In this document: in pieces, positions 3,412-41,523 of the stretch | How the letters are laid out: every line of letters begins with the position of its first letter | How positions within the stretch are numbered: the first letter of the stretch is position 1 | Assembly: GCF_000016285.1 (NCBI RefSeq) | Contig: NC_011989.1 | Location: 1,615,001 to 1,679,000 of the forward strand | From: Allorhizobium ampelinum S4 | Lineage (GTDB): Bacteria; Pseudomonadota; Alphaproteobacteria; Rhizobiales; Rhizobiaceae | DNA: 64,000 nucleotides | Direction: 5' to 3' | Program-made: the position numbers and the translations under genes | Notes under the pieces: model-generated | The model's input: the letters and a program-made list of their open reading frames with translations, nothing else | Told to the model about the DNA's origin: nothing | Database searches by the model: none

Positions 3412-4691
3412 TGGAGCCTGATCACGGCGCAACATCGCGGGCATGGTCCTGGCGTCATGCCGTTGCCAAATCCGGCCTGCCGCCGATCACGCGGCTGGTG
3501 CTGCATACGCTCGGCCTGAAGATGGATGCAACGGGTGGCTCCTGCTATCCGCCCGTCTCAGAACTGGTCGAGCTATCCGGCCTCGATAAGAAAACAATCC
3601 TGAAGCATCTGGATCTGGCAGAACAGGCGGGCTGGATCGAAGTCACCCAGCACGGCTTTCGCGGTCAAAAATGGAAGCGCAATGAGTATATCGCGCGCTG
3701 GCCGGGCCGCGATCTGGCCGGTCATGCTGCTGCGAGTTCTGTCGCAAATTCGCAAGCTGGTGGAGGAGATACACCACCTTTTGAGGGTGAGATTTTGCCG
3801 GAAGGTGGTGGAGCAGCTCCACCGCCTTGCGCGGAAAAGGTGGTGGAAATGGCGCCCGAAGGTGGTGGAAATGGTTCCACAAAGGTGGTGGAGCAGCTCC
3901 ACCAAGATAAGATTCTTCCAGCTAACTCTCCAAACAACTCTCCCACCGCAGGCGCGGGGCGGGGGGAATTTTCGAGAGAGGAATTGCGAAAGATCGATCT
4001 CGCCTTCAAGCGCTGGTATCCGACGTGGCCGAATTACGACAAGAGCAGCGACACGGCTGCGAGGAAGGCGTGGTTTGCCCTGACGGCAGATCAGCGGGCG
4101 GCCTGCATCGAGAAAACTCCGGCCTACATCCAGTGGATCGGCAAAGGCACGTTCACCTTCGCCGCTGTGTTCCTGCGAGACCGGGCTTGGGAAAAGATGC
4201 CTGAGGTTGCCCAGGCGGTCCAAACCCATGCCACTGCGAAGGTGTGCGGCAAGCTCTGGATGGGCAGGCGCTTGGAAGCGCTGCTTTGCGAGCCGACAGG
4301 CCAGTTCGTGTTCACGGCGTTCGATAATCGGCGGCTGGCTTCTGGCGCGATCAGCCGGGAAGCCCTGGTTTGGGAAAAGCGCCGGGAACACGGCTGGCCG
4401 CTGGTGAGCCGGATGCGCGACCTTGCCCGTCGCAATGAGCCGTTCGTCACCTCGGTGGACCTGCTGCCGCTGGTTGCCAGCTTCGAGCGGGTCGAAAGCA
4501 GCAGTGCGCTGTTTGCGGCCTGGAAGCGCCTGCACGAACGCCGTGGCTGGATGTTCGTCGAGGGCCTGCGCGACTGGAATTATTTCCCGCCCGTTGACCC
4601 GGATCAGCCCGATCTCGACGCGGCGGTCGAGGCGGCACTCGACCATTTCCAAACCAGCCTGAGCGAGGGACGCACCCATGATGCAGCATAA
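3408..4691 (+). CDS. Phage replication initiator with N-terminal helix-turn-helix
   Basis: A 427-residue protein whose first 80 residues form a winged helix-turn-helix (LPPITRLVLHTLGLKMDATG, then YPPVSELVELSGLDKKTILKHL), as in phage O-like or RepA-like replication initiators. A low-complexity Gly/Pro/Val linker (about residues 117-165) is encoded by the repeat array at 3759-3903. The C-terminal part after residue 195 (FKRWYPTWPNYDKSS) resembles the region in rhizobial phage replication proteins that probably contacts the host helicase loader; this is inference. Two adjacent ATGs (3408, 3411) are possible starts. The gene ends inside the next gene, which points to tight coupling. Confidence 0.7.
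   Translation: MMEPDHGATSRAWSWRHAVAKSGLPPITRLVLHTLGLKMDATGGSCYPPVSELVELSGLDKKTILKHLDLAEQAGWIEVTQHGFRGQKWKRNEYIARWPGRDLAGHAAASSVANSQAGGGDTPPFEGEILPEGGGAAPPPCAEKVVEMAPEGGGNGSTKVVEQLHQDKILPANSPNNSPTAGAGRGEFSREELRKIDLAFKRWYPTWPNYDKSSDTAARKAWFALTADQRAACIEKTPAYIQWIGKGTFTFAAVFLRDRAWEKMPEVAQAVQTHATAKVCGKLWMGRRLEALLCEPTGQFVFTAFDNRRLASGAISREALVWEKRREHGWPLVSRMRDLARRNEPFVTSVDLLPLVASFERVESSSALFAAWKRLHERRGWMFVEGLRDWNYFPPVDPDQPDLDAAVEAALDHFQTSLSEGRTHDAA
3759..3903. repeat. Iteron-like array inside the replication gene: probable phage origin
   Basis: Four direct copies of AAGGTGGTGGA lie at 3802-3812, 3837-3847, 3859-3869 and 3882-3892 (spacing 35, 22 and 23 bp), and a partial copy in reverse orientation lies at 3772-3780. 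Copies one and four extend into an almost perfect palindrome, GGTGGAGCAGCTCCACC, at 3807-3823 and 3887-3903. A relatively AT-rich stretch (about 3904-3945) follows. The layout copies that of lambda ori, which lies inside gene O. Confidence 0.68.
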
Positions 4692-5334
4692 CGGGAAACT
4701 TCTGGATGGCGTCTCGGACGAGGGTCTTTCACGCTTGGCTTACGTCAACGCCATGGAGGCCAAGCGGCAACGCCAAGTGGCGATGGCAAGGCGTGACCGT
4801 CCCGAGTTCGACCGTTTGGCGCGCTGGGTGGTAGCCAGCTGCAAGAGCGGTATGGAACAGGTGATCCGGGATTCGCTCGACCAGCAGGGAATCGAGTGCT
4901 GGTGCCCATGCGAACGTCACAAGTGGCCGCCTCGGCGGGGTAAGCAAGCTGTGGAAATCCAGCGGGCGCTGTTTCGGGGCTACCTGTTCGTGAAGGTCAT
5001 TCCCGACAATGAAGCCTTCGTCGGATTGATGCTTGCATCCAAGCTTCGCGGGCTGATGGGCAAGGATGGCAAACCGCACCTGATGCCCGAACCATTGATG
5101 CGCCAACTGATGCTCTCGGCCAAGAAAGCGGAAAGAAAACATATGGATGTGGGCGACGTGCCACCAATGCCGGATGTGCTGGGCAAGCAGGTGACGATCC
5201 GTTCCGGCCCGTTTGCCGACTTCGTGGTGACGGTGCGCAAGGTGCTGTCGAAGCGTGGCCAGGTGGTCGTTGATGTGCCGATGTTTGGCGGTATGAGCGA
5301 AATCACGATGGGGATTGACTTCATTTCTGACTGA
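4678..5334 (+). CDS. NusG/RfaH-like transcription antiterminator
   Basis: A 218-residue protein with an N-terminal NGN domain (about residues 40-120: LARWVVASCKSGMEQVIRD, then ALFRGYLFVKV) and a C-terminal KOW domain (about 168-215: GKQVTIRSGPFADFVVTVRK). The family binds RNA polymerase and lets it read through terminators. It overlaps the replication gene by 14 bases and is the last early gene before the packaging and structural genes, the place held by Q in lambda-type phages. I infer that it turns on the late operon, and that it would help polymerase pass the oppositely oriented rhamnose operon at 15-18.5 kb. Confidence 0.82.
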   Translation: MMQHNGKLLDGVSDEGLSRLAYVNAMEAKRQRQVAMARRDRPEFDRLARWVVASCKSGMEQVIRDSLDQQGIECWCPCERHKWPPRRGKQAVEIQRALFRGYLFVKVIPDNEAFVGLMLASKLRGLMGKDGKPHLMPEPLMRQLMLSAKKAERKHMDVGDVPPMPDVLGKQVTIRSGPFADFVVTVRKVLSKRGQVVVDVPMFGGMSEITMGIDFISD

Positions 5335-6002: not shown

Positions 6003-6470
6003 ATGAAGGGACGCAAGCCCTCCTCCGAAAACGTCGTCCCGCTGAAGACCGAGGACGGCCAGGGCGCGAACTTCGAGGCGCGGGCGGCGGCCAAGGCGCG
6101 GGAGCTGCGGCCGGATGACCTGCCGTTCGATGTGCGCGCCATATGGGATCGGATCGCACCGCCGCTGTGTGATCCCCGCAAAAACCGGTTGAATGAAGTC
6201 AACGTTTACATGTTCGAACAGCTCTGCTGGACGATAGCCCGCCATGAGCGGTTGCGGCTCGATGTGCGGGAAGGCGGGGAAACCTATGAGAGCCAAACCC
6301 GCAACGGCACCCAGTTGAAGAGCCGCCCGGAAGTCAGCCAGTTGAATGAGACGTGGCGGCAGATCCGGGCGCTGGCGAGTGATTTTGGCATGACGCCGTC
6401 TGCCGAGCGTGGCTTGCAGGCGACCGGCCAGCTAGGATTTGAGTTCCCGACCGATGATGGATTCGATTGA
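6003..6470 (+). CDS. Terminase small subunit (P27 family)
   Basis: A 155-residue protein of the P27 small terminase type: KGRKPSSENVVPL at the start, the RPDDLPFDVRAIWDRIAPPL segment, and a C-terminal LNETWRQIRALASDFGMTPS stretch, which is the family signature before the end. It recognises the packaging site and loads DNA onto the large subunit. Its end overlaps the large terminase start by about 17 bases. The HNH gene upstream and the large subunit downstream complete a normal packaging module. Confidence 0.88.
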   Translation: MKGRKPSSENVVPLKTEDGQGANFEARAAAKARELRPDDLPFDVRAIWDRIAPPLCDPRKNRLNEVNVYMFEQLCWTIARHERLRLDVREGGETYESQTRNGTQLKSRPEVSQLNETWRQIRALASDFGMTPSAERGLQATGQLGFEFPTDDGFD

Positions 6471-8268
6471 TGTCGAGATCCCGGATGTCAGCTATGACGA
6501 TGATCCGGTGACCGCCTGGGCGACGGATGTGGTGCGCGGCGATATCGTTGCCGGTCCCCATGTTCGCAATGCCTGCCGTCGTCACCTGCGCGATCTCATC
6601 GACGGCCCGGCCCGGGGACTGGTCTGGGATCTGGAGACCTCGAACAAGCGGATCAAGTGGTTCGGCTCCAAGCTGCGTCTGAATGGCGGGCAATTCGAGG
6701 GACGGCGGTTTCGGCTGCATCCGAGCCAGGCCTTTCGGGTCGGTTCGCTGTTCGGCTGGAAATGGGCCGATACCGGCTTGCGGCGGTTCCGGCGCTTCTA
6801 TGACGAAGAAGGCAAGGGCAACGGCAAGTCGCCATTGCTGGCCGGCATTGGCATCTGCATGATGGTGGCCGATGGCGAACCCCGTGCCGAGATCTATGCG
6901 GCGGCGGCCAAGAAAGACCAGGCGCAGGTGCTGTTTCGTGATGCGGTTGCCATGCGCGACCAGTCGCCGGAACTGATGAGGCGGATTACCACCTCGGGGG
7001 AAAACCCGGTCTGGCAGCTCACGTACATCAGCAAGGGCGGCGACAAGCGGTTCTTCAAACCGATCTCGGCGGATAAGGCGCAATCGGGTCCGCGTCCGTC
7101 CTGTGCGCTGTGCGATGAGGTGCATGAACATCCAAACCGCGATGTCATCGAAATGCTGGAGCGCGGCTTTAAATTCCGCAAACAGCCGTTGTTGGTGATG
7201 GCGACCAATTCCGGCTCCGACCGCAAATCGATTTGCTGGGAAGAGCATCAGCATGCGGTCAGTGTCGCGGCGGGCATCGTCCAGGACGACACGACATTCG
7301 CCTTTGTCTGCTCGCTCGATGAGGGCGATGATTGGGAAAACGATCCGTCCTGCTGGGTGAAGGCAAACCCGCTGCTGGATGTGACGATCACCACGGATTA
7401 TCTGCATGGGGTCGTTGACCAGGCGCGGATGATGCCCGGCAAACGAAACGGCATTGCCCGGCTGCACTTTTGCGAATGGACGCAATCAGTCAATGCGGCG
7501 ATCAAGCGTGAGGCCTGGATGGCCTGCCAGAAGGATCTCGATCTTGACTGGCTGATAGAGCAAGGTTTTCCCTGCTATGGCGGCCTCGACCTGTCGCGCA
7601 CCCGTGACTTTACCGCGCTGACCCTGATCTGGGTGCTTGACAGTACCAAGGATGCTGAGCGGTTTGCGTCAAAGACATGGTTCTGGACACCTGCCGATAC
7701 GCTGGAGGATCGGGCCAATACCGACCAGGCCCCCTATGACCTCTGGCGTGACCAGGGTTTTATCGAGGCGGTGCCCGGCCAGCGGCTCAAATATCCGTGG
7801 CTCGCTGGAGCCTTGGCCGAGATCTGCGCAAAGTTCGAACCGACTGAGATCGGCGCCGACCAGTACGGGTTGGAGCAATTGTCCGAGCATCTGGAAGACC
7901 AGGGTGTTTCCCTACCGCTGACCATCCACCCGCAGGGCTTCCAGCGCCGGGTGCTGGAGCGCGATCCTGACGCACCGGATGGTGAGCAGGATATCTATCT
8001 CTGGATGCCGCACAGCATCAACAAGCTCGAGAACGCGCTCTATGAGACGCGCATCGAGATCGACCCGAACCCGATGCTGGACAGTTGTGCGGCCAGCACC
8101 GTCTTTGCAGAAAACCGCACCGGCCATCGGATGTTCGACAAGGAACATGCCTTTGGCCGCATCGACGGCATGGTGTCTTTGGCCATGTCGATGGGCATGG
8201 CGATGTGCCGTGTTCGTGCCTCCCAGGCATCCCCATGGGATGACCCGGATTACTCCATACATCAATAA
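6454..8268 (+). CDS. Terminase large subunit
   Basis: About 604 residues. A TTG at 6439 is upstream in frame, but ATG 6454, inside the small-subunit gene, is the more likely start. The Walker A motif is GKGNGKSPLLAG, Walker B is PSCALCDEVHEH, and the nuclease acidic site is in YGGLDLSRTRDFTALTL. This is the ATP-driven motor and endonuclease that packs the phage genome into proheads. Length and order agree with P27/HK97-type large subunits. All visible catalytic residues are present, so the gene looks functional. Confidence 0.93.
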   Translation: MMDSIDVEIPDVSYDDDPVTAWATDVVRGDIVAGPHVRNACRRHLRDLIDGPARGLVWDLETSNKRIKWFGSKLRLNGGQFEGRRFRLHPSQAFRVGSLFGWKWADTGLRRFRRFYDEEGKGNGKSPLLAGIGICMMVADGEPRAEIYAAAAKKDQAQVLFRDAVAMRDQSPELMRRITTSGENPVWQLTYISKGGDKRFFKPISADKAQSGPRPSCALCDEVHEHPNRDVIEMLERGFKFRKQPLLVMATNSGSDRKSICWEEHQHAVSVAAGIVQDDTTFAFVCSLDEGDDWENDPSCWVKANPLLDVTITTDYLHGVVDQARMMPGKRNGIARLHFCEWTQSVNAAIKREAWMACQKDLDLDWLIEQGFPCYGGLDLSRTRDFTALTLIWVLDSTKDAERFASKTWFWTPADTLEDRANTDQAPYDLWRDQGFIEAVPGQRLKYPWLAGALAEICAKFEPTEIGADQYGLEQLSEHLEDQGVSLPLTIHPQGFQRRVLERDPDAPDGEQDIYLWMPHSINKLENALYETRIEIDPNPMLDSCAASTVFAENRTGHRMFDKEHAFGRIDGMVSLAMSMGMAMCRVRASQASPWDDPDYSIHQ

Positions 8269-8280
8269 AGGGGTGGCCTG

Positions 8281-9588
8281 ATGGCATCCAAGAAAGGCAA
8301 GGCCGAGCGGCGTTCAACGTCGCTCGAAAGCGAAACCGTGCCGGTCAGCGCCACCAATTTTATGGAGTTCTTCGGGCTTGGCGGCGGCGCACTGCCCACG
8401 GTCAATATCGAAACGGCCCTGAAAGTCCCGGCTGTGCAGGCGGCGGTATCGTTTCTGTCGCGGACCCTCGCAACACTTCCGCTGCATGTCTACCGGACGG
8501 GCGAACGCGGACCGGTGCGGCTCGGCGGAAAGCTGGCTGTCGTTCTGGAGGAAAACCCGAATGACGAAATGGACACCTCAAAGTTCCGGCGCTTCTTCTG
8601 GGAACAGGTGTTTACCGGCGGGCGGGGGCTGGCCTGGATCGAGCGCAAGGGTGCTGGCATCGAGGCGCTTTGGCCGATTGATCCCGGCAGCTGTTCGATC
8701 AGGCGGCGTGGCGGGCGGCTGTTCTACAGTTTCGAGGGCAGGGAATATCCAGCCACCGACGTGATCGACATCCCCTATATGCTGAAGCGTAATCTGGTCC
8801 AGCATCGCGGCCCGATTGCCATGGCGGAAAAGGCCATCCAACTGGCGCTGGCCATGAACGACTATGCCTCGAACTTCTTTGCAGGCGGCGGCGTTCCGCC
8901 CTTGGCGCTGGAAGGGCCGATGCCTGCCAATGACAAGGCCATGCAGCGGGCGCGTGAAGATATCAAGCGGGCGGTGAAGGCGGCGCGAGACGATCAGCTT
9001 CCGCTGATCCAGTTGCCGGTCGGCTACAAACTCACCCAAGTGGGTTACGACCCGGCCAAGGGGCAGATGACCGAGGCGCGGCTTTACCAGGTGCAAGAGA
9101 TTGCCCGCGCCTATCAGATCCCGCCGAACTTCCTTCAGGACTTGAGCCGAGCAACCTTCTCCAATGTCGAGCAGAACGACCTCTATCTGGTCAAGCATCT
9201 GGTCAGCCAATGGGCGACGGCGATGGAAGGGGAAATGAACCTGAAGATTTTTGGGCGGATGAATACCCGCCGTTATGTCCGCCACAACCTCGACGGCCTG
9301 ATGCGCGGTGACTTCAAGAGCCGGTTGGAAGCCTTAGCAACCGGCGTCAATTCGGCGCTGCTGACCCCGAACGAGGGCCGAGAGATTGAAGGCCGTCCAC
9401 GTGATCCGAACCCGGCTGCCGACCAACTCTACATCCAGGGCGCAACCGTCGCCATCGGCACCAGTGTCATCGACACAAGTGCCCCCGGCACAAATGCGAT
9501 GGGCGAGAATAGCGACCCGCCGCTCAATGATCCCGCAGCAGACACAGAAAGGCAGGTGACCGATGACACCGAAACCGAAACCGGGTGA
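8281..9588 (+). CDS. Portal protein (HK97 family)
   Basis: A 435-residue portal protein. The family signatures VPAVQAAVSFLSRTLATLPL near residue 45 and the central YQVQEIARAYQIPPNFLQDL stretch are plain. The portal forms the dodecameric ring in one capsid vertex through which DNA enters and to which the tail attaches. The C-terminal 45 residues are acidic and Pro/Asn-rich, as is common. It ends inside the protease gene (26-bp overlap), and lies directly after the large terminase. Confidence 0.93.
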   Translation: MASKKGKAERRSTSLESETVPVSATNFMEFFGLGGGALPTVNIETALKVPAVQAAVSFLSRTLATLPLHVYRTGERGPVRLGGKLAVVLEENPNDEMDTSKFRRFFWEQVFTGGRGLAWIERKGAGIEALWPIDPGSCSIRRRGGRLFYSFEGREYPATDVIDIPYMLKRNLVQHRGPIAMAEKAIQLALAMNDYASNFFAGGGVPPLALEGPMPANDKAMQRAREDIKRAVKAARDDQLPLIQLPVGYKLTQVGYDPAKGQMTEARLYQVQEIARAYQIPPNFLQDLSRATFSNVEQNDLYLVKHLVSQWATAMEGEMNLKIFGRMNTRRYVRHNLDGLMRGDFKSRLEALATGVNSALLTPNEGREIEGRPRDPNPAADQLYIQGATVAIGTSVIDTSAPGTNAMGENSDPPLNDPAADTERQVTDDTETETG

Positions 9589-13781: not shown

Positions 13782-14225
13782 ATGGCACAAGCAACCACCA
13801 TGCGTGGCGGGAAGATCCGTGTTCTGCTCGGAAATTCCGCCACCCCTATCGTCTATTCCGCGCCTTGCGGCTTTACCCAGCGGTCGGTGTCTCTCGATAA
13901 GGGCCTGGAGGAAAGCTCTATCCCTGATTGCGATGATCCCGATACCGTAGATTGGATTGGCCGTGATGCCTCGTCGCTCTCTATGTCGATCTCAGGCGAG
14001 GGTGTTCTGGCGCAGGAAAGCGTTGAGACCTGGCTCGATGCCTGGGAAGACATCGACAGCATTCCGGTTAAGGTTGAATGGGAGTTCCCGGCCAAGACCA
14101 TAACCTGGACAGGCCGCATGCATGTCGAGAAGTTCGAAGGTGCTGGCGACAACGGCAAGCGCGCCACGGCCAGCATCTCGATGCAGAGCGACGGTAAGAT
14201 GACCCGCGTGGTCACCCCGAAATGA
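13782..14225 (+). CDS. Major tail tube protein
   Basis: A 147-residue protein with a good ribosome-binding site (AGGAGG at 13770-13775). It matches the TP901-1-type tail tube pattern: VSLDKGLEESSIPDCDDPDT, SLSMSISGEGVLA, then a beta-rich WTGRMHVEKFEGAGDNGK ending in ATASISMQSDG. It would polymerise into the tail tube. Its stop overlaps the chaperone start (ATGA). The absence of a sheath gene next to it points to a long non-contractile (siphovirus) tail. Confidence 0.87.
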   Translation: MAQATTMRGGKIRVLLGNSATPIVYSAPCGFTQRSVSLDKGLEESSIPDCDDPDTVDWIGRDASSLSMSISGEGVLAQESVETWLDAWEDIDSIPVKVEWEFPAKTITWTGRMHVEKFEGAGDNGKRATASISMQSDGKMTRVVTPK

Positions 14226-14605
14226 GGAACGCGGAACTGACAATGCCTTGGGCGGATGGTGATTACACCTTCCGCCTCGGCTGGGGTGAGCTGGAGGGAT
14301 TGCAGGAGGCCTGCGATGCCGGGCCGTATGTGATCCTCGACCGGCTCCAGACCAGCACTTGGCGGGTGGGGGACATCGCCCATGTGATCCGGTTCGGGCT
14401 GATCGGCGGCGGCAAGTCGCCGGTTGAGGCGCTCACCCTGGTGCGCAAATGGGTTGAGGCCCGCCCGCCCGCTGAAAATCTGCTGTTTGCCCAGGCGATC
14501 CTGACAGCCGGCATCGTCGGCGCACCGGATGAAAAACCGGGGGAGCCAGACGCGGCAAATCAAAAGGGGGCAATGCCCTCGACGACCTTCCCAACGGAAA
14601 GTTGA
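14222..14605 (+). CDS. Tail assembly chaperone, short form (GTA-family)
   Basis: A 127-residue protein of the kind called gene transfer agent family: WADGDYTFRLGWGELEGLQE, then TWRVGDIAHVIRFGLIGGG. In tailed phages this slot holds the short chaperone (lambda G) that coats the tape measure protein. The reading frame carries a candidate slippery heptamer at 14563-14569, and the next frame (14602-14787) is in -1 phase, so a frameshifted form of about 188 residues is likely. The TGA stop shares bases with a TTG that could start the second frame. Confidence 0.8.
   Translation: MRNAELTMPWADGDYTFRLGWGELEGLQEACDAGPYVILDRLQTSTWRVGDIAHVIRFGLIGGGKSPVEALTLVRKWVEARPPAENLLFAQAILTAGIVGAPDEKPGEPDAANQKGAMPSTTFPTES
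14563..14569 (+). promoter_or_regulatory. Candidate -1 ribosomal frameshift site (A AAG GGG)
   Basis: In the frame of the chaperone gene the codons read CAA AAG GGG GCA, so the heptamer A AAG GGG fits the X XXY YYZ rule for simultaneous slippage of both tRNAs. After a -1 slip the ribosome reads GGC AAT GCC CTC and continues open to 14787. The -1 frame is open from 14531, just after a TGA, and has no ATG before the TTG at 14602. Confidence 0.68.
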
Positions 14606-14787
14606 GATTTGCCGCGATTTACGGCAATGGCGCGACCATGGGGTTTCCCCCCCAATCAGTCCGCGCCATGTCCATGTTCCAGTTCTTCGCGGCGGTCGAC
14701 GGCTGGATGACGGCCAATGTGCCGGAAGAGGAAAACGCGCTGTCAGAGAGGGAAAGGGATGATCTTTGGGAGTTTATTAGCCGCTGA
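14602..14787 (+). CDS. Tail assembly chaperone, downstream (T-like) part
   Basis: The independent frame from a TTG at 14602 gives 61 residues, but coding look extends further upstream in the same phase (LDDLPNGKL precedes it), so the segment is probably translated mainly as a -1 frameshift extension. It reads RFAAIYGNGATMGFPPQSVR, then FFAAVDGWMTANVPEEENAL, which resembles the second chaperone piece of GTA-type phages. The fused product would be lambda GT-like and recruit tail-tube subunits. The gene is directly followed by the 177-bp spacer before the oppositely oriented rfbA, where the tail operon is broken. Confidence 0.7.
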   Translation: MRFAAIYGNGATMGFPPQSVRAMSMFQFFAAVDGWMTANVPEEENALSERERDDLWEFISR

Positions 14788-14964
14788 TGTTGGGGTGGTC
14801 TGTTGTCGAGCAAAGATCGAATATTACAGCGCAATGAGGATGAAGCATTTTTGTCCGCTATTTCGGTCCGACATCGAATTACGTTGCATATATAAGCCGC
14901 TACAGCGCCCCGCACGCTTTCATGCAAGTCGCTGTAACGCAGATGCGCATGTGAATTAAAAGCG

Positions 14965-15828
14965 TTAGAGCACTTTTTTCAGCAGATATTGCCCATAAGC
15001 GCTCTTGCCATATTGCAGGCCGAGCGCTTCCAACTGCTGGGCGTCGATGAAACCGAGCCGATAGGCGATCTCTTCCGGGCAGGAAATCTTGAAGCCCTGA
15101 CGGCGTTCCAGCGTGGCGACGAATTCCGAGGCATCCAATAGACTGTCGGGCGTGCCGGTATCCAGCCACGCATAGCCGCGGCCCATCTTCACCACGTTCA
15201 GCCGACCGCGTTCTAGATACACGCGGTTGACGTCGGTGATCTCCAGCTCGCCACGCGCCGATGGCTTCAGGTTTGCAGCGATATCAACGACATCCTTGTC
15301 GTAGAAATATAGCCCGGTCACGGCCCAGCTCGACCGCGGCGTTGGCGGCTTTTCCTCGATCGAAATCGCCTTCATGTCCTTGTCGAATTCCACGACGCCG
15401 TACCGCTCGGGATCATTGACGTGATAGGCAAATACGGTTGCCCCGTCATTGCGTGCCACAGCACTTCTGAACAGGTCGTTGACACCATGGCCATAGAAAA
15501 TATTGTCGCCGAGGATCAAACAAGACGGATTAGAGCCGACGAAATCCGCGCCGATAATATAGGCCTGCGCCAGGCCATCCGGTGACGGCTGCTCGGCATA
15601 GGTCAACGAAATCCCCCATTTCGACCCATCGCCCAGCAGGCTTTGAAAGTTCGGCAGATCCTTTGGCGTCGAGATGATCAGGATGTCGCGAATCCCGGCC
15701 AGCATCAGCGTCGAGAGCGGATAATAGATCATCGGCTTGTCATAGACAGGCATGAGCTGCTTGGAGGTGACTAGCGTCATGGGATGCAGGCGGGTGCCGC
15801 TGCCACCGGCTAGAATGATACCCTTCAT
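14965..15828 (-). CDS. rfbA: Glucose-1-phosphate thymidylyltransferase
   Basis: A 287-residue enzyme, of normal family length, that makes dTDP-glucose from dTTP and glucose 1-phosphate. The nucleotide-binding start [16 protein letters not shown] is intact, as are [20 protein letters not shown] and NIFYGHG. It is the last gene of the minus-strand rhamnose operon and is separated from rfbD by 77 bp with a small hairpin (around 15869-15890). The operon lies inside the phage tail gene set, which is exceptional. All visible catalytic motifs look functional. Confidence 0.95.
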
Positions 15829-15905
15829 TTATAAAACTCCTGACACGTCATTTGTGTTCGTTGTCTTTTGAGGAAAGCTGGCGACCAGTTTTCCCTAGAC
15901 AAACT

Positions 15906-16811
15906 CTAAACTGCGGCTGGTCGGCGTAACCGGTCGATGACCAGTTGCGTCGATACGCGCCAATCGGGGATATCGATAGCATGAACTCTGGCCAGTTTGG
16001 CGCAATCCAGCCGGGAGTTCGCAGGCCGTTTGGCGGGCGTCGGGTAGGCGCTGGCCGGGATTGGATTGACTTTGGCCGAAGGGCCGTTTTGCTCAGCCGA
16101 CAGCCTGAAGATCTCCGTTGCAAACTCCGCCCAGCTCGCCTCTCCCGTTCCCGTCATATGGAACGTGCCGCGCAGATCGGCGGCCTTGGACGACAGCAGG
16201 TTATCAGCCACCTTCAACACCGCATCGGCAATATCGAGCGCCGAGGTCGGATTGCCGATCTGGTCGGCGACCACGCCCAGTTCATCGCGGGTTTCAGCCA
16301 GCCGCAACATGGTCAGCAGAAAGTTCTTGCCGAACGGGCTATAGACCCAGGCCGTGCGCAGGATCGCGTGGTTATCGGTTTCAGCCGCCACCCGGCGCTC
16401 GCCTTCCAGCTTGCTGCGGCCATAGACGCCAAGCGGCGCAACCGGATCGGCCTCGTTATAGGGCGAAGCCTTGCTGCCATCGAAGACATAATCGGTCGAG
16501 ATATGGATGATCGGGATATCCAGCGCCTTGGCAACCCGCGCCAATTCCCCCGGCCCTTCGCCATTGACCGCAAAGGCCGCGGCCTCGTCGGTTTCGGCCT
16601 GGTCGACCGCGGTATAAGCGGCAGCCGAAATAATCAGGTCGGGTTTCGCTGCCCGCACAGCCGCTTCAATCGTCGCGGCATCGGCCAGATCAAGCTGTGG
16701 CCGACCCAGGGCGACCAGGTCGATATCCTTGCGATCGCTGGCTTTCTCAAGCAGCGACTGCACGACCTGTCCGGCCAGGCCCGTCACCAGATAGCGCTTC
16801 ACGCCGCTCAT
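15906..16811 (-). CDS. rfbD: dTDP-4-dehydrorhamnose reductase
   Basis: A 301-residue short-chain reductase that performs the last step to dTDP-L-rhamnose using NAD(P)H. The Rossmann start is [15 protein letters not shown], followed by [13 protein letters not shown], the active-site [10 protein letters not shown] and the YxxxK pair in YGRSKLEGE. Its ATG overlaps the rfbB stop by four bases, so the two are coupled. C-terminal residues ([14 protein letters not shown]) are the usual family end. Nothing suggests decay. Confidence 0.95.
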
Positions 16812-17866
16812 TTGCTCGCGGCTTTCAGCAGGCCAAGACGGCTACCATCATAGCCCTGGCGCAACGGTTCCCACCACCAGCGGTTTTCAAGATACCATTT
16901 CACGGTTTTCTCGATGCCGGTCTCGAAATTTTCCTGAGCCTTCCAGCCGAGTTCGGTTTCCAGCCGCGTCGCGTCGATGGCATAACGGGCGTCGTGGCCG
17001 GGACGGTCGGTCACGTATTGGATCAGCTTCTCATGCGGCGTATCCGACGGATGCAGGCCATCCATCAGCGCGCAGACGCGGGTGACGACCTCAATATTGC
17101 GTCGCTCATTGCGGCCACCGACATTATAGGTTTCGCCAATCTGTCCACGCTCCGCGATGATATCAAGCGCCCTGGCATGGTCTTCGACGTAAAGCCAATC
17201 GCGGATATTGGCGCCATTGCCGTAGACCGGCAGAGGCTTGCCTTCCATCGCGTTGATGATCATCAGCGGAATGAGCTTTTCCGGAAAATGGAAGGGGCCG
17301 TAATTGTTGGAGCAATTCGACACCACCACCGGCAGGCCATAGGTGCGCGCCCAGGCCTTGGCGAGATGGTCGGAAGCGGCTTTCGAGGCGGAATAGGGGG
17401 AGCTTGGATCATAAGGGGTGGTTTCGGTAAACAGACCCTCATCGCCCAGCGAACCATAAACTTCGTCGGTCGAGACATGCAGGAAGCGGAAACCGTCCTT
17501 GCTCGCACCTTCCAGCCCCTGCCAATAGGCGCGGGCGCATTCCAACATGGTGAACGTGCCGAGCACATTGGTCTCGACGAAATCCTTGGCGCCAGTAATT
17601 GAGCGGTCGACATGGCTTTCGGCGGCCAGATGCATGACGCGGTCGGGCTTGAAGCTTGCAAAAGCCGAGGCGATTGCCTGGCCGTCGCAGATATCGGCCT
17701 GAAGGAACCGGTAAAGCGGATTTGCCTCAACCGATTTCAGCGAGGTCAAGGTACCCGCATAGGTGAGCTTGTCGACATTCAGGACGTCATAGCCTTTTTC
17801 AAGCACCAAATGGCGAACAACGGCCGATCCGATAAAGCCGGCACCGCCGGTTACAAGTACGCGCAT
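16808..17866 (-). CDS. rfbB: dTDP-glucose 4,6-dehydratase
   Basis: A 352-residue extended SDR enzyme that converts dTDP-glucose to dTDP-4-keto-6-deoxyglucose. Clear motifs are [28 protein letters not shown], the [10 protein letters not shown] stretch with the catalytic Asp-Glu, and [10 protein letters not shown] with the Tyr-Lys pair; [16 protein letters not shown] is also typical. It follows rfbC by a 54-bp gap and overlaps rfbD. The four genes cover the complete route from glucose 1-phosphate to dTDP-L-rhamnose. Confidence 0.95.
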
Positions 17867-17920
17867 GATTTTCGATATCCCCTAGCGTTCATAGAGCAGA
17901 CTGGCACCAAGCAGAGGCGC

Positions 17921-18484
17921 TTAAGGCTGATAGACGAAATTCGTCTCAAGCTCGCTCAGTTTCGGCTGCTTCTTGTCCTTGTCAGACAGGATGGCGTTGT
18001 CTTCCGTCACCGGCCAATCGATTGCCAGCGCCGGATCGTTCCACAACAGGCCCCGGTCATGATCCGGGCTGTAATAATCCGTCACCTTGTAGCTGATCAC
18101 GGTATTGGGCTGCAATGTGCAGAAGCCATGCGCAAAACCCGGCGGCACCCAAAGCTGGCAGCCGTTTTCGGCAGTCAGTTCGGCTTTCACCATCTGGCCA
18201 TAGGTCGGCGAGCCCTGGCGAATATCGACAGCGACGTCCAGCAAAGCGCCAGCCGCACAAGAAACGAGCTTGCCCTGCGCCCTCGGGTTCAACTGGAAAT
18301 GCAGGCCGCGAACCGTACCAACCTCGGCCGAAAACGACTTGTTGTCCTGAACGAAGGTGAAAGGTCCCACTTCGCTTTCAAACAGGCTGGCGCGGAAGGT
18401 TTCCATGAAATAGCCCCGCGCATCCCCAAACCGCTTTGGAGTGATTAGAAAAACGCCCGACAGCTTCGTTTCTTCAAACTGCAT
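17921..18484 (-). CDS. rfbC: dTDP-4-dehydrorhamnose 3,5-epimerase
   Basis: A 187-residue cupin enzyme and the first gene of the minus-strand rhamnose operon. The catalytic His lies in TVRGLHFQLNPRAQGKLV, and ALLDVAVDIRQGSPTYGQ, VPPGFAHGFCTLQ and YKVTDYYSPDHDRGLLWND are family signatures. The region 18485-18560 must hold the operon promoter. It points away from the tape-measure gene that begins 433 bp to its right. Confidence 0.95.
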   Translation of the reverse strand: MQFEETKLSGVFLITPKRFGDARGYFMETFRASLFESEVGPFTFVQDNKSFSAEVGTVRGLHFQLNPRAQGKLVSCAAGALLDVAVDIRQGSPTYGQMVKAELTAENGCQLWVPPGFAHGFCTLQPNTVISYKVTDYYSPDHDRGLLWNDPALAIDWPVTEDNAILSDKDKKQPKLSELETNFVYQP

Positions 18485-18916: not shown

Positions 18917-21664
18917 ATGGCAACCGACCTAGAAAAACTCGTCGTGCAGCTTTCGGCCGACATCAAAGGCTATCAGCGCGAGATGCAGAAGGCGGCTGGC
19001 GTCACCAACGCCCAAGCCCGCGCCATTGAGAACCGCCTGAAGAAAATGGACGGCCAGTTCTCGGCGCTTGGCACGTCCATGGCGCGCGGGCTGATCACGC
19101 CGATTGCGGGGATCTCGGCGGCGCTGACAGTGGATTCCGTCATCCATTATGCCGACGCCTGGACCAGCGCCAAGAACAGCCTGGCCGTCGCTGGCGTCGT
19201 CGGAACAAATCAAGTTTCCGTCCTCGACCAGATTTACAACTCTGCCCAGCGCAATGCCGCCCCGATTGGTGCCATGGCCGATTTGTTCGGCAAGGCGGCG
19301 CAATCCGGTGATTCGCTTGGTGCGTCTCAGGCCGATCTGCTGAAATTCACCGATGGCGTCGGCACGGCACTGAAGATCGAGGGCAAGTCTGCCACCGAAG
19401 CGCAAGGCGCGCTGACGCAGCTCGGCCAGCTCCTCGGCTCGACCCGCGTCCAGGCCGAAGAATTCAATTCGGTCAATGAAGGGGCGCGACCGATCCTGAT
19501 CGCCGTTGCCAATGGTCTCAGCGCTGCGGGCGGTTCTGTCAGTAAGCTCAAACAATTGGTCAATGATGGCAAAGTGTCCAACCAGGAATTCTTTCAGTCG
19601 TTCCTGAAGGGCTTGCCGACCATCCAGGGGATGGCGGCCAATGCCACCCAGACGATTGAACAGGGCGTGACCAAGGTGAACAATGCTTTCACCCGTTATA
19701 TCGGCCAGACGGATGAAAGCCTCGGCGCATCCCAGCGCCTGGTGGCTGGATTGAATGCTCTGGCGGATAATTTTGAACAGACGGCCGATGTCGTCCTGAA
19801 GCTCGCCTCTGTCATTGCTGCCGCTCTGGTTGGCCGGTCCATCGCTCTGATGATTGCCAATCTCGGCCTCGCCACAGCGGCAGTTGTCCGGCTGGTCGCG
19901 GCGCTGCGGGCTGCATCGTCCATGGCTGGCATTGCGACCGCCATCAGCGGCATCGGTGCTGCTGCCGGTCCGCTCGGCCTCATCATCGGCGGAACGGTCG
20001 TCGGTGCGCTTGCACTGTTTGCGAGTGGATCGGGTGAGGCAGGCCAAGCTGCTGACCGGTTTTCCGAGCGTTTGAAGCGTGTCGGAGAGGCGGCCGAAGA
20101 ATCGGCCGAAAAGGTTGATAAGGCGCGCCAAAGCTACAATGCCGTTAAGGAAAACCAGTTGGCGCAGGAAGCCAAAGTAGCGGCCTCGTCTCTTAAAAGC
20201 ACCAGTGACGAGACGATCAACCTCCTATCGTATTTTGCTAAAATGCGTGAATCCAACCTGATCACGCCTGAGCAAGCGACCGAACTTGAGCGGTTGCGTG
20301 ACGGCATTAAGACCGGCTCTGTTTCGGCTGACGATGCGCGGCAATCTCTGGCTAAGATGGCGACTGCGGACTACAATTTTCAGCAGATCGCAGACGCGAT
20401 AGACCCAATCCTCAAGAAACTGACGACGATCAGCGTCGCTGCACAACAAACAGCAAGCGATCTCGCCGCCGTCCAATCTGCAAAGGTCATGTCTCCAGAA
20501 CAGGTTGCCGGATACAAGCAATATGCGCAATCGCGCAAACAGGGCGAGGAGATGCTGCGGATCGGCAAGGCCTACGCTGATGAGGCGCAACGCCAGAACA
20601 CGCTGTCGAAAGAGCAGCTGGCTATTGAAGGCAAGAGGGCTAAAATCAAGGCGGATCTCGCTAAAACGGGCGGGGTTTTGCCTGATGATAAAATCACATC
20701 CTTGGCAATTGCGGAGGTCAAAGCGGATGAGCGGCGCTCCGATACCGGCAAAACGACCGCCGCGCCGAGAGCGACGGCAGATGACCGGCTCGACATGGAT
20801 ATCCAGTCGATCCGGGATCGGACGGCGGCCCTCGTCGAAGAGCAGGCAGTCGTCGGGCAATCCTACCGTCAACAGGAAAAGCGCCGCATGGCGCTCGATC
20901 TCGAACAGCAGGCGCTCCAGGATGTCCGTGAAGAGGCGCGGCGCAAGGGCGATGCTGACTGGCAGAATGCCAAGCTGGCACCTGAACAGATCGCCAAGAT
21001 CAATGCCGCCTCGGACGCTTATGCCGAGCAGGCCGATATCCTGCGCAAGGTCGAGGACGCCCAGCAGCGGTCGCAACAGGCAGCACAAGAGTTCTACGAT
21101 ACCGCCAAGTCAGCCTTTTCCGATGTGATCATGGGGGCCGAAAGCTTTAGCGATGCCCTGTCCGGCGTTCTCAAGAAGCTGGGCGAACTGGCGTTGAATA
21201 GCGCGTTTGACGGCCTGTTCGGCGGATCGTCCGCGACCAGCAGTGGTGGCTGGTTGACCGGCTTTGCCAAGGCGATTGGCTTTGCTGATGGCGGCTATAC
21301 CGGGGCAGGGGGCAAATATGAGCCTGCGGGCGTCGTGCATAAGGGCGAATATGTCTTTGACGCGGATGCCGTTCGAAAGGCTGGTGGACCGGCTGGCCTG
21401 GACGCCATGCGCAAGCGGCTGAAGGGCTATTCCAGCGGCGGCTATGTTGGGCCAAGTGCGCCACGCATGCCGGATCTGTCCAGGGCTGCTGCCAGCAAAG
21501 CCAGCTCGGTGCAGATCAGTATTAATCCGGTGATCGACAATCGCGGGGCTTCTGTTGAAGCGGTGGCGCGTCAAGAGCAGGCGATGAATAAGCTGCAAAA
21601 GACCTTGCCAGCCCAAATCATCACGGCGGTGCGCGATGCCAGGGCGAGGGGTGTGAAGGTATGA
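18917..21664 (+). CDS. Tail tape measure protein
   Basis: A 915-residue protein that sets tail length. It starts with an N-terminal coiled coil (LVVQLSADIKGYQREMQKAA), then the TIGR02675-like tape measure domain (about residues 75-260: DSVIHYADAWTSAKNSLAVA, AQGALTQLGQLLGSTRVQAE). Hydrophobic segments at about 290-375 (LKLASVIAAALVGRSIALMI, AAGPLGLIIGGTVVGALALF) are the usual membrane-insertion part, followed by long helical coiled coils and a Gly-rich end. Short for the family but consistent with a modest tail. It lies 4.1 kb from the chaperone genes, with the rfb operon between. Confidence 0.92.
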   Translation: MATDLEKLVVQLSADIKGYQREMQKAAGVTNAQARAIENRLKKMDGQFSALGTSMARGLITPIAGISAALTVDSVIHYADAWTSAKNSLAVAGVVGTNQVSVLDQIYNSAQRNAAPIGAMADLFGKAAQSGDSLGASQADLLKFTDGVGTALKIEGKSATEAQGALTQLGQLLGSTRVQAEEFNSVNEGARPILIAVANGLSAAGGSVSKLKQLVNDGKVSNQEFFQSFLKGLPTIQGMAANATQTIEQGVTKVNNAFTRYIGQTDESLGASQRLVAGLNALADNFEQTADVVLKLASVIAAALVGRSIALMIANLGLATAAVVRLVAALRAASSMAGIATAISGIGAAAGPLGLIIGGTVVGALALFASGSGEAGQAADRFSERLKRVGEAAEESAEKVDKARQSYNAVKENQLAQEAKVAASSLKSTSDETINLLSYFAKMRESNLITPEQATELERLRDGIKTGSVSADDARQSLAKMATADYNFQQIADAIDPILKKLTTISVAAQQTASDLAAVQSAKVMSPEQVAGYKQYAQSRKQGEEMLRIGKAYADEAQRQNTLSKEQLAIEGKRAKIKADLAKTGGVLPDDKITSLAIAEVKADERRSDTGKTTAAPRATADDRLDMDIQSIRDRTAALVEEQAVVGQSYRQQEKRRMALDLEQQALQDVREEARRKGDADWQNAKLAPEQIAKINAASDAYAEQADILRKVEDAQQRSQQAAQEFYDTAKSAFSDVIMGAESFSDALSGVLKKLGELALNSAFDGLFGGSSATSSGGWLTGFAKAIGFADGGYTGAGGKYEPAGVVHKGEYVFDADAVRKAGGPAGLDAMRKRLKGYSSGGYVGPSAPRMPDLSRAAASKASSVQISINPVIDNRGASVEAVARQEQAMNKLQKTLPAQIITAVRDARARGVKV

Positions 21665-32963: not shown

Positions 32964-34505
32964 TTACTGTTCGGCTTGGCACGATTTGGCATCGTTGCCG
33001 CACTTTTGCCTGCGCAGGCCGACTGCTTCAGCCTCGATCAAAAAATAAGGCTGCGTTTCAAAACCATTTAACCGTACCATCTCTGGAAGTAACCTCTCGA
33101 GAACATGCGCCGCTGTTCCGTCAAGCTGCCCTTGTTCAGGCCCGAAAAGATTTTCTAGTGCATCATATTCGAGAACACTGGCGAGTGCCTTTACCCTGTA
33201 AAAAGCCATGGAACCGGCCGCATATGCACCTAGTGCCTCAAAACTACATTCCAAACGAAGTTTTTGTGCGATGTAACGGATGGCGTCTTTATTTTTTTCT
33301 TCTTCCGTAAAGTGCTTAATCATGCAGAAATTTTCTGGGTACATCATGCCCATATCGTCCCGATCTTGGAATTGATCGATTATACCTTTCAGCAAAGGCT
33401 CGTATCCAATTGTTTGATCGAAGAGATACCGACGCCAGTTGTCACCCCATGTAATATGCGGGCTTTTCTTCGTGTGAAGATGCAAAACCAAATCTGACTT
33501 TCGCCATATCGGGCTGGCATCAATAAGAAAAGGCGCAATGTCGCGGCCTCTGTTCTCGACCACGAGAATGTGGGTATTTTGCCGCTGATTGAAGTCGACC
33601 AGAAGATTCTCCACTACCTTTGCATCACTCTCATTGCAAACAGTTACCACGAGGTAGAACGGCAGCGTCAAACACTGAAGCCGATCAGCGATCTCATTGA
33701 ACAATTCAACATAAAAACAATGGACATGAATACAGAGGCTCAATTGCAAAGCCACCGTATTCGAAGAATCTATGGTTATGTCCTCGGCGAACGGTGGTTT
33801 CGAAAATAACTGTACTCCTGGTCGGCTCTCCACGTTAGCCGGAAATTTCTGGCCCCCATCCATGCTCTCAATGCAATGCTGGAAAGGGTTTTGCCCGCGG
33901 CTAAGGCCATTAGCCTTACGATAGTAATACCCGTCAAAATCCGCCCGAGGCTGGCGATCCTCCGAAAAGCCCCAATGCATATAATGCATAAAGGCTCCAG
34001 CAGGTGTCATTGCGGTATCCGGGTATTCTTTTAAATAGAATTCAGCATCGAAAAAATCACGATATCGCGTCCATTTTTTACGTAATCTACGTCGCTCGGT
34101 CGAAGTGAATGAAACGGGTAAACACAGATCAGTCGCAATTCCGAAACACTCGATGTGACTTTGCCAAGCATAGGAGCCATAGAGCCGAATACAGGCCTGG
34201 GCGAGGTCAACGTTTAACGCCTCTAGGCGAGGATGGGCTTTCGAAAAAGCCTGAACATTAAAATATTGGAAAGGAGAGCGACCTTCCTTCCAGCCATTAG
34301 CGACGTAGTGGTAGATCGGGTCAATTCCAGAGGCATGAACGTCAATGTATGTATTTAAGTAAAAATCACGGTCAAAAAAAATTAAAGTGCTTTCTTTCTG
34401 TTTCCCGTATTTGCCAACTGTCTTCAATGAAAAAATAGAGTTCGCCACATTGAAAATGTGGCGAACTCTATTTAATTGAAATATAATAAATCTTATGAAA
34501 TTCAT
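32964..34505 (-). CDS. Rhamnan synthesis protein F (RgpF) family, with N-terminal repeat region
   Basis: A 513-residue protein. The C-terminal 320 residues have the RgpF pattern (LSLCIHVHCFYVELFNEIAD, NTHILVVENRGRDIAPFLID, DLVLHLHTKKSPHI, GMMYPENFCMI), known from rhamnose-glucose polysaccharide and O-antigen loci. The N-terminal 190 residues contain repeats of the form FD-FYL-YPD-NP-HY-GR (FDRDFYLNTYIDVHASGIDP; FDAEFYLKEYPDTAMTPAGA), shared with the protein at 37280-39301. AT-rich codons compared with the phage. It probably acts on a rhamnan together with the rfb operon; exact linkage is unknown. Confidence 0.82.
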   Translation of the reverse strand: MNFIRFIIFQLNRVRHIFNVANSIFSLKTVGKYGKQKESTLIFFDRDFYLNTYIDVHASGIDPIYHYVANGWKEGRSPFQYFNVQAFSKAHPRLEALNVDLAQACIRLYGSYAWQSHIECFGIATDLCLPVSFTSTERRRLRKKWTRYRDFFDAEFYLKEYPDTAMTPAGAFMHYMHWGFSEDRQPRADFDGYYYRKANGLSRGQNPFQHCIESMDGGQKFPANVESRPGVQLFSKPPFAEDITIDSSNTVALQLSLCIHVHCFYVELFNEIADRLQCLTLPFYLVVTVCNESDAKVVENLLVDFNQRQNTHILVVENRGRDIAPFLIDASPIWRKSDLVLHLHTKKSPHITWGDNWRRYLFDQTIGYEPLLKGIIDQFQDRDDMGMMYPENFCMIKHFTEEEKNKDAIRYIAQKLRLECSFEALGAYAAGSMAFYRVKALASVLEYDALENLFGPEQGQLDGTAAHVLERLLPEMVRLNGFETQPYFLIEAEAVGLRRQKCGNDAKSCQAEQ

Positions 34506-37279: not shown

Positions 37280-39301
37280 TCAGATGTGAAAGATCGAACG
37301 TCCCTCATGCTGGCCGTGACGCAAAAAATGCTGAAGCGGGTTGATGTTCGCAACCTGAATATCTGGATAGGCTGCAAGATAAAATGCAGTGGAAAATTTC
37401 CTTGAAGGGTCTCTCCGTTCCTTCCAGCCGTTGATGTGGTAGTGCCATAGCGGATTGATTCCGGAATTGCGGATATCGTCGTATTGGGACAGATACCAAT
37501 GGGTATCAAAAAATGCGTTCGGCCAAAGGCCTTGCGAGAAGCCCGCCTTAACGAAGTGCAAAGCAGCATCTATTGGTGCAGAAGGCGGCGTGATAAGAGC
37601 GTTCTTGAGCTGACTGCAATAGAAATCAAAGTCAAATAAATCGCTTGCCAGCAATTTGCGAGCTAGGCGCTTGTCGGCTCCGGGATCAAGCTTACCAAAA
37701 AATGATTGCTCGAGCCGCTTTTTTGATGCCGCCAGCGCAGATTGAACATTTATCAAGTCCTCTTTCAGTCGAGTATTTTGCCCGTCTTGGCCTGCCAGTT
37801 CTTCCTGCAGTGCTTTGGTCTGTGCGTCTCGGCCTACCAGTTCTTCCTGCAGTGCTTTGGTCTGTGCGTCTCGGCCTGCCAGTTCTTCCCGCAGTTCTTT
37901 GGTCTGTGCGTCTCGGCCTGCTAGTTCCTCTCGCAACACGGTAACCTCCGACTCCCGGTTTACAAGGTCGTGCTGCAATACGTTGACTTGGGCCTCTAGT
38001 TTCGTCAGATCATGATCGCGCTGATCTCGATCTGCTTGTAGGTTAACGCAGGCCTCCATCGCTGTTTGTAGCTCGTCCGCGAGAACGTCGACCCGAGACA
38101 TCAGCTGTTGACATTCTGTCTGAGCGCTAGTTAGTTCCTCTTCGAGGCGTTGCCGGTCCTTATTGGCATGCTCTAGCGTTTCCTGAAGCTCCGCGATACG
38201 AGCGAGAGAGTGATTTGAGTTTTGCTCTATAGCATCGCGCTCAAGAATCAGTGTCTCAGAAGTCTGGCGTGCGGCTTCCAATTCAGTTTCAAGATGCTGC
38301 CTCTCATTCCTTACGTGTTCAAGTGTGCCTTCTAGCTCATTGAGCTTGTTTGTATGATGAGCGTCACTGTCATTTTGCGCATTTTGCAAGGCGTCGCGGT
38401 CTCGGACAGCCGCTTCCAAAGAGCGGTTTGTTTCCTCTATGCTGATTTCATATTCGATGAGCAGGCGACCGAAAATTGCACCTGAATTGTTGAATGCCTC
38501 TCTTACATCAGTCAGCGCTGTCCGCGCTGCCTTTGACTGTGGCGATTTAGAGAGTTCCTTTAAGGCTTCATAGGTTTCCATAGCCCAATGATTGACCTGC
38601 CGCAGTTGGGCAAAGGTTTTTTCTTCAGACGCATGGTGTTGTAAGTCTCGCGAGAGGAAATTTTCCACTTCAGCAATGGACCTATCCGAAAGGCGCGGCC
38701 AAGTGAGACCAGTTTCGGCTGAAATAGTATCGCATGTGCCACGCCAGTTGCCGAGGAAGTCTTGCCAGGTGAAAATGGCGCGTGGAAGATCTCTGGTTTC
38801 GGCCTCGGCATCCAGAACATGCCGCAGCCAGAGCATTATGACATGCGTCATGTGCATCTTGTTGCGGTAGTTCAACGATTTTGCCGTATCCCATGGAGAC
38901 CGCAAGGGCATAACGACATGAACTGTTTTCCCCATTCCCTCAAGAACCTGCCGCCAAAACGGAAAGAACCGACAGATGCGTGGGTCTTTAATAACTGGAA
39001 GCAAGGCCGTGTCGAACTCTTCAGCAAAAGCTTCTCTTGCTCTCGCTTGAAAACTCCGTGCGACGGTGCTGTTATACCAATCTGGATTGAATTCGCGCCA
39101 ATCATCCCACCGGGTCCCAGCAGACGCTAGAATTTCATCGTTTAGCTGGGCAATGACATTGGATTCAAAATAACCGCGCTCATTAAATGCGCTATTTGGC
39201 ATCAAGTGCTGAGGGGCGCCCCCTCCCAGCTTAACCAAGGTACCGGCAACCGAGCTTGTGCCGGTCCGATGCATACCCAGTACCATAACAACATCAGACA
39301 T
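37280..39301 (-). CDS. Sulfotransferase-like protein with long coiled coil and C-terminal repeats
   Basis: About 673 residues from ATG 39301, which has AGGGG upstream; ATG 39316 is also possible. Domain one (about 1-250) has the phosphosulfate-binding loop VVMVLGMHRTGTSSVAGTLV and later VMPLRSPWDTAKSLNYR, a sulfotransferase/P-loop fold. A long coiled coil follows (about 285-535), including 14-residue repeats (LREELAGRDAQTK and variants). The C-terminus holds three FD-YL-YPD-NPL-HY-GR repeats (WYLSQYDDIRNSGINPLWHY), also seen in RgpF. The protein may transfer sulfate to the glycan, or have a different nucleotide-linked function. Confidence 0.7.
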   Translation of the reverse strand: MSDVVMVLGMHRTGTSSVAGTLVKLGGGAPQHLMPNSAFNERGYFESNVIAQLNDEILASAGTRWDDWREFNPDWYNSTVARSFQARAREAFAEEFDTALLPVIKDPRICRFFPFWRQVLEGMGKTVHVVMPLRSPWDTAKSLNYRNKMHMTHVIMLWLRHVLDAEAETRDLPRAIFTWQDFLGNWRGTCDTISAETGLTWPRLSDRSIAEVENFLSRDLQHHASEEKTFAQLRQVNHWAMETYEALKELSKSPQSKAARTALTDVREAFNNSGAIFGRLLIEYEISIEETNRSLEAAVRDRDALQNAQNDSDAHHTNKLNELEGTLEHVRNERQHLETELEAARQTSETLILERDAIEQNSNHSLARIAELQETLEHANKDRQRLEEELTSAQTECQQLMSRVDVLADELQTAMEACVNLQADRDQRDHDLTKLEAQVNVLQHDLVNRESEVTVLREELAGRDAQTKELREELAGRDAQTKALQEELVGRDAQTKALQEELAGQDGQNTRLKEDLINVQSALAASKKRLEQSFFGKLDPGADKRLARKLLASDLFDFDFYCSQLKNALITPPSAPIDAALHFVKAGFSQGLWPNAFFDTHWYLSQYDDIRNSGINPLWHYHINGWKERRDPSRKFSTAFYLAAYPDIQVANINPLQHFLRHGQHEGRSIFHI
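37791..37937 (-). repeat. 42-bp tandem repeat (3.5 copies) in the coiled-coil gene
   Basis: Units begin at 37791, 37833 and 37875, with a partial one from 37917. Each codes for 14 residues ending in a variant of EELAGRDAQTKAL. The copies differ at only a few bases, so they are young and probably vary in number between strains. Confidence 0.85.
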
Positions 39302-39429
39302 GGCATTTCCCCTCATATTCCCACAAAGACTCCTATAAAGAACTTCCTAATTTTTTTTAACAACAAACTGCTAGATTAATTTGGCTTCCTTATCCCCATG
39401 GCCTTTGAACCGGCTGGCCCGCTGCTGGT

Positions 39430-39564: not shown

Positions 39565-39770
39565 TCACTCCAGGATTCTGGCAGCATTTTGATCCGGTAC
39601 TTCTTTTTGGATGATACTGCGTCGTTTGTCGTGGTTGTTCGTTTTTACGTGGGACACCTTATAGCTAACCGTTTGTTTTTTTGAGATATGCAATGGCCTC
39701 ATGTGGGACACAGGGGGCCCTAATTTTCAGTCTCTTCCCTCAAGGTTATATTCGTCTCGACCGCACCAAG

Positions 39771-39794
39771 AACCCGGCTTTAGGCCGGGTTTTT
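39771..39794 (+). terminator. Rho-independent terminator
   Basis: AACCCGGC (39771-39778) pairs with GCCGGGTT (39784-39791) across a TTTAG loop, followed by a run TTTTTCTTTTTT. No gene for it is visible on the plus strand, so it is probably a leftover of a lost gene. The IS1595 element lies 46 bp to its right. Confidence 0.8.
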
Positions 39795-39832
39795 CTTTTT
39801 TGTTCAACAGCCTAATTTTTTGACGTGTCTGG

Positions 39833-41505: not shown

Positions 41506-41523
41506 CAAATAGGAGGCAATGAT

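Follow-up and report, generated by a model that had tools for sequence, protein, structure and literature searches.

The rfb operon in the tail region of a prophage

The window analysed here, i.e., the whole stretch of 64,000 nucleotides from Allorhizobium ampelinum S4 (NC_011989.1, positions 1,615,001 to 1,679,000; G000:C6:1615001-1679000 in our labelling, in which G denotes genomes and L loci), carries a prophage of about 43.9 kb integrated in tRNA-Leu (anticodon gag) of a 6.32 Mb genome in seven contigs, the host being a relative of Agrobacterium associated with grapevine. Within the tail genes of this prophage, between the genes encoding the tail assembly chaperone and the tape measure protein, an rfb operon for the synthesis of dTDP-L-rhamnose is located on the minus strand (Table 1). 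A preliminary description of this DNA had reported four intact genes in the order rfbC, rfbB, rfbD and rfbA, and the analysis bears this out: the four open reading frames (ORFs) are complete and all four enzymes of the pathway (rml/rfb) score above the NCBIfam equivalog cut-offs. The PRK models of the same enzymes have higher cut-offs, and rfbA, rfbB and rfbD score below these. The G+C content of the gap holding the operon is 0.57 compared with about 0.60 in its surroundings, and other cargos in the genus range from 0.43 to 0.53. The tape measure protein can be aligned to its relatives along all 915 residues, and the flanks 14760-14899 and 18830-18929 have no direct repeat 7 to 14 bases long in common, so that the intact right side and the lack of flanking repeats, both noted earlier, are confirmed.

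Two circumstances had been named that would speak against a phage-borne operon, namely rfb genes at the same place in strains without the prophage and left and right phage parts that are unrelated to each other. Neither was found. The host possesses a complete resident rfb operon elsewhere, about 382 kb from the prophage copy. The two phage parts belong to one element, since the 54-bp tRNA-Leu att core is present at both ends and both host flanks lie side by side in genome G055.

Table 1. Features of the prophage and of the rfb cassette, with positions in the window unless a contig is given.
Feature	Position	Strand	Evidence or remark
rfbA, glucose-1-phosphate thymidylyltransferase	14965..15828	-	TIGR01207 rmlA, 494.8 bits (cut-off 360.65); PF00483
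rfbD, dTDP-4-dehydrorhamnose reductase	15906..16811	-	TIGR01214 rmlD, 315.4 bits (cut-off 224.05)
rfbB, dTDP-glucose 4,6-dehydratase	16808..17866	-	TIGR01181, 483.6 bits (cut-off 365.1)
rfbC, dTDP-4-dehydrorhamnose 3,5-epimerase	17921..18484	-	TIGR01221 rmlC, 230.5 bits (cut-off 155.75)
Captured segment	14877..18846	-	95.5% identical to resident rfb locus; includes about 360 bp upstream of rfbC with 3' end of GH28 gene
Phage-specific left flank, 89 bp	14788..14876		84-99% identical among four rfb-bearing prophages; 35-43% to resident loci, i.e., no homology
Tail tube protein	13782-14225		left of cassette
Tail assembly chaperone, GTA-gp10 type	14222..14605	+	PF11836, E=7.2e-21; phrog_8985
Second short chaperone ORF, 61 codons	14602..14787	+	70-92% matches in 11 of 15 relative loci; not in L052, L053, L054, L055
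Tape measure protein	18917..21664	+	PF20155, E=1.1e-49
RgpF, rhamnan synthesis protein F family	32964..34505	-	PF05045, E=4.6e-39, 134.9 bits (cut-off 25)
Double-domain GT2 glycosyltransferase, 810 amino acids	34513..36945	-	PF00535, E=1.5e-33
678-amino acid protein	37280..39316	-	sulfotransferase-like N terminus (our reading); in Pfam only DUF4164, below cut-off
NusG/KOW-domain protein, possible late antiterminator	4678..5334	+	PF02357, E=1.5e-12; KOW
Large terminase	6439..8268	+	PF03354, PF20441
Portal protein	8281..9588	+	PF04860
attL, 54-bp core at tRNA end	G000:C6:1610948-1611001		left of window
attR, 54-bp copy of tRNA-Leu 3' end	39755..39808

The chaperone/tape measure junction as a cargo slot

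This alphaproteobacterial siphophage family regularly accommodates cargo at the junction between the chaperone and tape measure genes. In total, 54 loci were read, 49 of which are distinct while five are gaps already counted that recur in another collection. The sample comprises the window, 15 further loci of the genus except L052, L054 and L055, and those 49 of 95 database loci that possess both chaperone ORFs and a usable start of the tape measure gene (46 were dropped), from which eight were left out as genus genomes present a second time. The prophage of G058 was included despite its lost chaperone gene and its gap was measured from a capsid fragment. A gap of at least 200 bp is present in 43 of the 54 loci (39 of the 49 distinct ones) and it is shorter in 11, so the earlier assumption that the two genes are normally adjacent does not hold for the family. 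Uninterrupted junctions nevertheless occur in relatives, as had been expected, and the genus contains near-empty ones of 26 bp in G050 and 43 bp in G020 (23 and 31 bp with the stop codon placed exactly) versus 4129 bp in the window. With respect to these phages the window cargo is DNA inserted between otherwise adjacent genes, as in a moron. Control junctions were scored in 25 loci, wherever both genes were found. The distances were -7 to +16 bp for terminase-portal (12 of 12), an overlap for portal-protease (12 of 12), -19 to +11 bp for tail tube-chaperone (25 of 25) and -19 to +21 bp for tape measure-Dit in 18 of 21, the remaining three being 434, 363 and -1678 bp, the last probably mis-scored.

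In 28 of the 30 groups of cargo, the longest ORF of the gap runs antisense (margin of 120 bp, 70% overlap; binomial p=4e-7), a count that includes several short antisense ORFs without homology support and that is compared with a simple 50:50 null. The exceptions are G056 and L140. The cargos themselves are diverse. The slot of G060 (L044:929-3401) contains an antisense CBASS-type cyclase with a SAVED-transmembrane effector and also a SLATT-like protein with a Pfam score below cut-off, the slot of G015 contains HicAB, a slot in a viral contig encodes a methyltransferase-like protein, and small secreted or membrane proteins, as judged from their sequences, are found as well. Cargo of the type of the CBASS and HicAB systems resembles that of prophage defence hotspots, of which those of Rousset and colleagues from 2022 are reportedly situated at sites in other phages. 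In G014 (L048:7851-10301) the slot encodes an antisense protein of 816 amino acids with AAA-type Pfam matches below cut-off; PADLOC gave no match for it and it is perhaps an undescribed defence protein. In G056 (L047:5029-6838) an antisense ORF of 249 amino acids without Pfam match is accompanied by a sense ORF of 330 amino acids with an LprI-like domain. The rfb cargo is present in 4 of the 54 loci, all of these within the genus. No rfb match at E<=1e-5 was obtained in the DNA of the 95 database loci, a set in which some genus genomes are represented by reference copies, all lacking a prophage rfb, and a scan of viral contigs with rfbD returned one locus at 66%.

In phage HK97, gp15 is encoded between the chaperone and the tape measure genes. 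As with gp15 and with Tab of phage JBD26, a constitutively expressed moron in the late operon (PMC10884400), extra genes are placed here among late genes, and morons are expressed from the prophage. However, Tab is situated between terminase genes, whereas the window cargo is antisense and consists of four host biosynthetic genes in one operon, whose sequence has been homogenised with that of the host copy. Gene order in the head-tail clusters of RcGTA-like elements and of Rhizobium phage 16-3-like phages is the same as in the prophage. For vB_MseS-P1, 16-3 and HK97, 'uncertain insertions' were reported in the variable g11-15 cluster (PMC11409702), and in AP-16-3 the gene p016, marked in one table column only, follows p015 (GTA family) and precedes the tape measure gene p017 (PMC10460002). 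The accessible parts of both reports do not mention orientation, cargo types or sugar genes.

It was proposed in the preliminary description that a NusG-like antiterminator of the same phage may allow late transcription to cross the antisense operon. The gene is present and a relative is found in six of seven other carriers tested, the match in G015 being only 29%; it was not found in the decayed prophage of G058. It is not a special enabler of the cargo, as G050, whose slot is empty, carries the gene too (88%).

Capture of the cassette and recombination with resident operons

Within the genus, rfb-bearing prophages are those of G000 (the window), G058, G061 and G057. The operon is complete in G058, rfbA, rfbB and rfbC are retained in G061 with rfbD mostly lost, and G057 carries rfbA alone. 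In G058 the head and tail genes are left only as fragments, most not being found, and the junction was recognised by the common flank. All four copies share the phage-specific left flank, and the right junction, judged by eye, is identical in the three prophage copies that reach it. The stretch following rfbA can be aligned between prophage and resident copies, and in the 88 bp after this gene G000, G061 and G057 differ by 26-31% from eight residents, which differ by 0-4.5% among themselves.

The coding core behaves differently from these ends. At third codon positions the window copy differs from the eight residents by 12.7% on average, compared with 14.1% among the residents themselves. An rfbA tree with the four prophage copies as one clade was rejected by the approximately unbiased (AU) test (p=6.5e-54), as was an rfbB-rfbC tree that places the three prophage copies together (p=0.007). 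The G058 prophage copy shows no third-codon-position difference to its own resident, and the conversion ran from resident to prophage in this genome, because the end sequence of the prophage copy became resident-like. The right end of the G061 copy is 83% identical to Allorhizobium taibaishanense (G050) over 359 columns, and three closer residents gave only partial matches of 69-77%; the rfbA-side ends of G000, G057 and G061 are likewise nearer to A. taibaishanense (79.5-83%) than to other residents (69-74%). The simplest account of these comparisons would be a single capture from the rfb locus of an A. taibaishanense-like Allorhizobium donor, the coding core having later been overwritten with host alleles through homologous recombination between the cassette and the rfb operons of one host after another. 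A duplication within the genome of the window alone was ruled out, as different genomes have the capture flanks in common and non-resident ends persist in three of the four copies.

The right-end RgpF module and the possible role of the cassette

The genes for RgpF, for the double GT2 glycosyltransferase (GT) and for the 678-amino acid protein are located between the lysis genes and attR. Among 63 genomes of the genus, RgpF relatives at 92% occur only in G061 and G058, with partial-length matches of 29-37% in four others, and GT relatives at 95-98% occur only in the same two, with 20 further genomes at 28-42%. The three close carriers of RgpF and GT, including the window, are the same three that retain rfbB and rfbC in the prophage, and second rfbA copies at E<=1e-60 are found in 4 of the 63 genomes, i.e., these three and G057. 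This co-occurrence is suggestive, with p=2.5e-5 if the genomes were independent, which they are not, and p=0.018 among the eight carriers whose right end was read. A search of 394 genomes of the family for RgpF gave matches at E<=1e-40 only in the genome of the window and in one other (37%), a separate scan of viral contigs with RgpF gave none, and no relative of RgpF was detected among solved structures at E<=0.1. In its C-terminal half, the phage GT shares 42% identity with a GT encoded just after the resident rfbA.

An alternative right-end module with its own nucleotidyltransferase and a related double GT is present in G004, which belongs to the same species as the genome of the window, in G057 and in G050. 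In G004 (L213:5394-16817) it comprises the nucleotidyltransferase, HAD phosphatase-like proteins, a weakly sulfotransferase-like protein and the double GT. A related GT is also present in G060 and G015, but that nucleotidyltransferase was not found in the stretches fetched. The tape measure protein of the window is 96% identical to that of G004, 94% to that of G057 and 82% to that of G061, and for the head region the values are 95.0%, 94.9% and 93.3%. The RgpF/GT pair thus crosses backbone lineages, because in its backbone the window resembles G004 and G057, both with the other module, more than G061.

On balance we lean towards an interpretation in which the rfb operon, captured once and rewritten by its hosts, is cargo of an accessory slot for antisense, presumably lysogeny-expressed genes and probably feeds dTDP-L-rhamnose to RgpF and the double GT at the attR end. 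With these two proteins, a glycan containing rhamnose would be built or decorated at the surface of the lysogen, and on induction the opposing late transcription would cross the cassette and turn it off. Several findings weigh against this interpretation. All four hosts of rfb-bearing prophages possess a complete resident rfb operon, which makes the cassette redundant for making the sugar, and only the family name of PF05045 points to rhamnose as the substrate. The co-occurrence comprises only three genomes of shared ancestry; among these, G061 retains RgpF and GT although most of the rfbD in its prophage is gone, and the gene for the 678-amino acid protein is split in G058. The orientation bias is weaker under a stricter rule in which ORFs are clipped to the gap (22 of 30 groups antisense, p=0.008), and in a sigma-70 consensus scan promoter-like and terminator-like sites did not exceed those in shuffles (2 vs 2.2 and 2 vs 4.3, respectively).

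The redundancy is also what would be expected if the operon were an accidentally captured passenger that is restored by recombination with the resident rfb, in a slot tolerating any antisense insert and with a link to RgpF that reflects shared ancestry. The near identity of the G058 copy to its own resident and the decayed copies in G057 and G061 fit this explanation, which we regard as plausible though unlikely. It is opposed by the presence of close RgpF and GT relatives in three of three carriers of rfbB and rfbC and in none of the other 60 genomes, by the passage of this pair across backbone lineages, and by G058, in which rfbA-D, GT and RgpF are all open although most head and tail genes are gone. 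G057, with its different right-end module, keeps rfbA alone.

More doubtful is a role in dosage or insurance for the rhamnose polymers of the host itself, e.g., in plant colonisation or for O-antigen if the resident copy were lost, independent of RgpF. A complete rfbABCD cluster was described in a prophage of Shimia haliotis, likewise inside an alphaproteobacterial prophage, and the authors tied such roseobacter prophage genes to biofilm formation (PMC8224337); the available part of that report does not mention a slot, the strand, recombination with a resident copy or a partner rhamnan module. The four enzymes of the window are intact and differ little from the resident ones (one amino-acid change in rfbA, six in rfbD, three in rfbB and three in rfbC), but the low dN/dS of 0.009-0.30 is confounded by conversion from the resident, and the co-occurrence with RgpF and GT would be left unexplained. 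No description of an antisense chaperone/tape measure slot, or of a prophage rfb operon paired with RgpF, was found in the accessible parts of the literature searched, most subscription papers being outside it.

Serotype-converting phages of the gtr type carry a set composed of the flippase GtrA, the bactoprenol transferase GtrB and a specific transferase. The rfb genes had initially been suggested to be a serotype-conversion cassette, and as a self-contained one at 14965-18484 this appears very improbable: the dTDP-L-rhamnose pathway is complete, but these are precursor enzymes only, without transferase, flippase or polymerase, and intact versions of all four genes are present in the host. 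What makes serotype conversion plausible is the presence of RgpF and the double GT2 in the same prophage, with close relatives in the same three genomes. As in gtr-type phages such as Shigella SfI (PMC3636060), a temperate phage would carry surface glycan genes; the components here are different ones, namely RgpF, a double GT2 and, apart from these, the precursor operon, and a scan of the three right-end ORFs gave no GtrA-type match. Finally, an assembly artefact or chance join, for which the similar second copy 382 kb away could be invoked, was rejected, since the copies diverge by 4.5%, G061 shows rfbA, rfbB and rfbC at the same junction in a separate assembly, and G058 and G057 have the same phage-side flank.

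At the ends of the prophage, an integrase (PF00589) and an ABC-2 permease (PF01061) are encoded beside attL, the permease (L009:11012-12052) just inside it and with a relative in all eight carriers tested; a prohead protease is present in the prophage as well. Just outside attR (window 40088-42146), an IS1595-type transposase and a PemK/MazF-type toxin gene are found in a stretch that is absent from G055.

Extending the favoured interpretation, we tentatively consider that the slot is a general antisense one of alphaproteobacterial siphophages in which convergent late transcription would restrict any cargo to lysogeny, and that here it may house the part of a divided glycan-conversion system that makes the precursor, the other part being swapped at attR while the operon is refitted by recombination in each host. 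With this survey, cargo, including defence systems, can be sought at one defined position in a phage family that occurs in several alphaproteobacterial genera. Furthermore, the cassette clearly illustrates the concerted evolution of a host operon carried by a phage and its resident counterpart, and it offers a testable example of a surface-glycan system that may be divided between two cargo slots.

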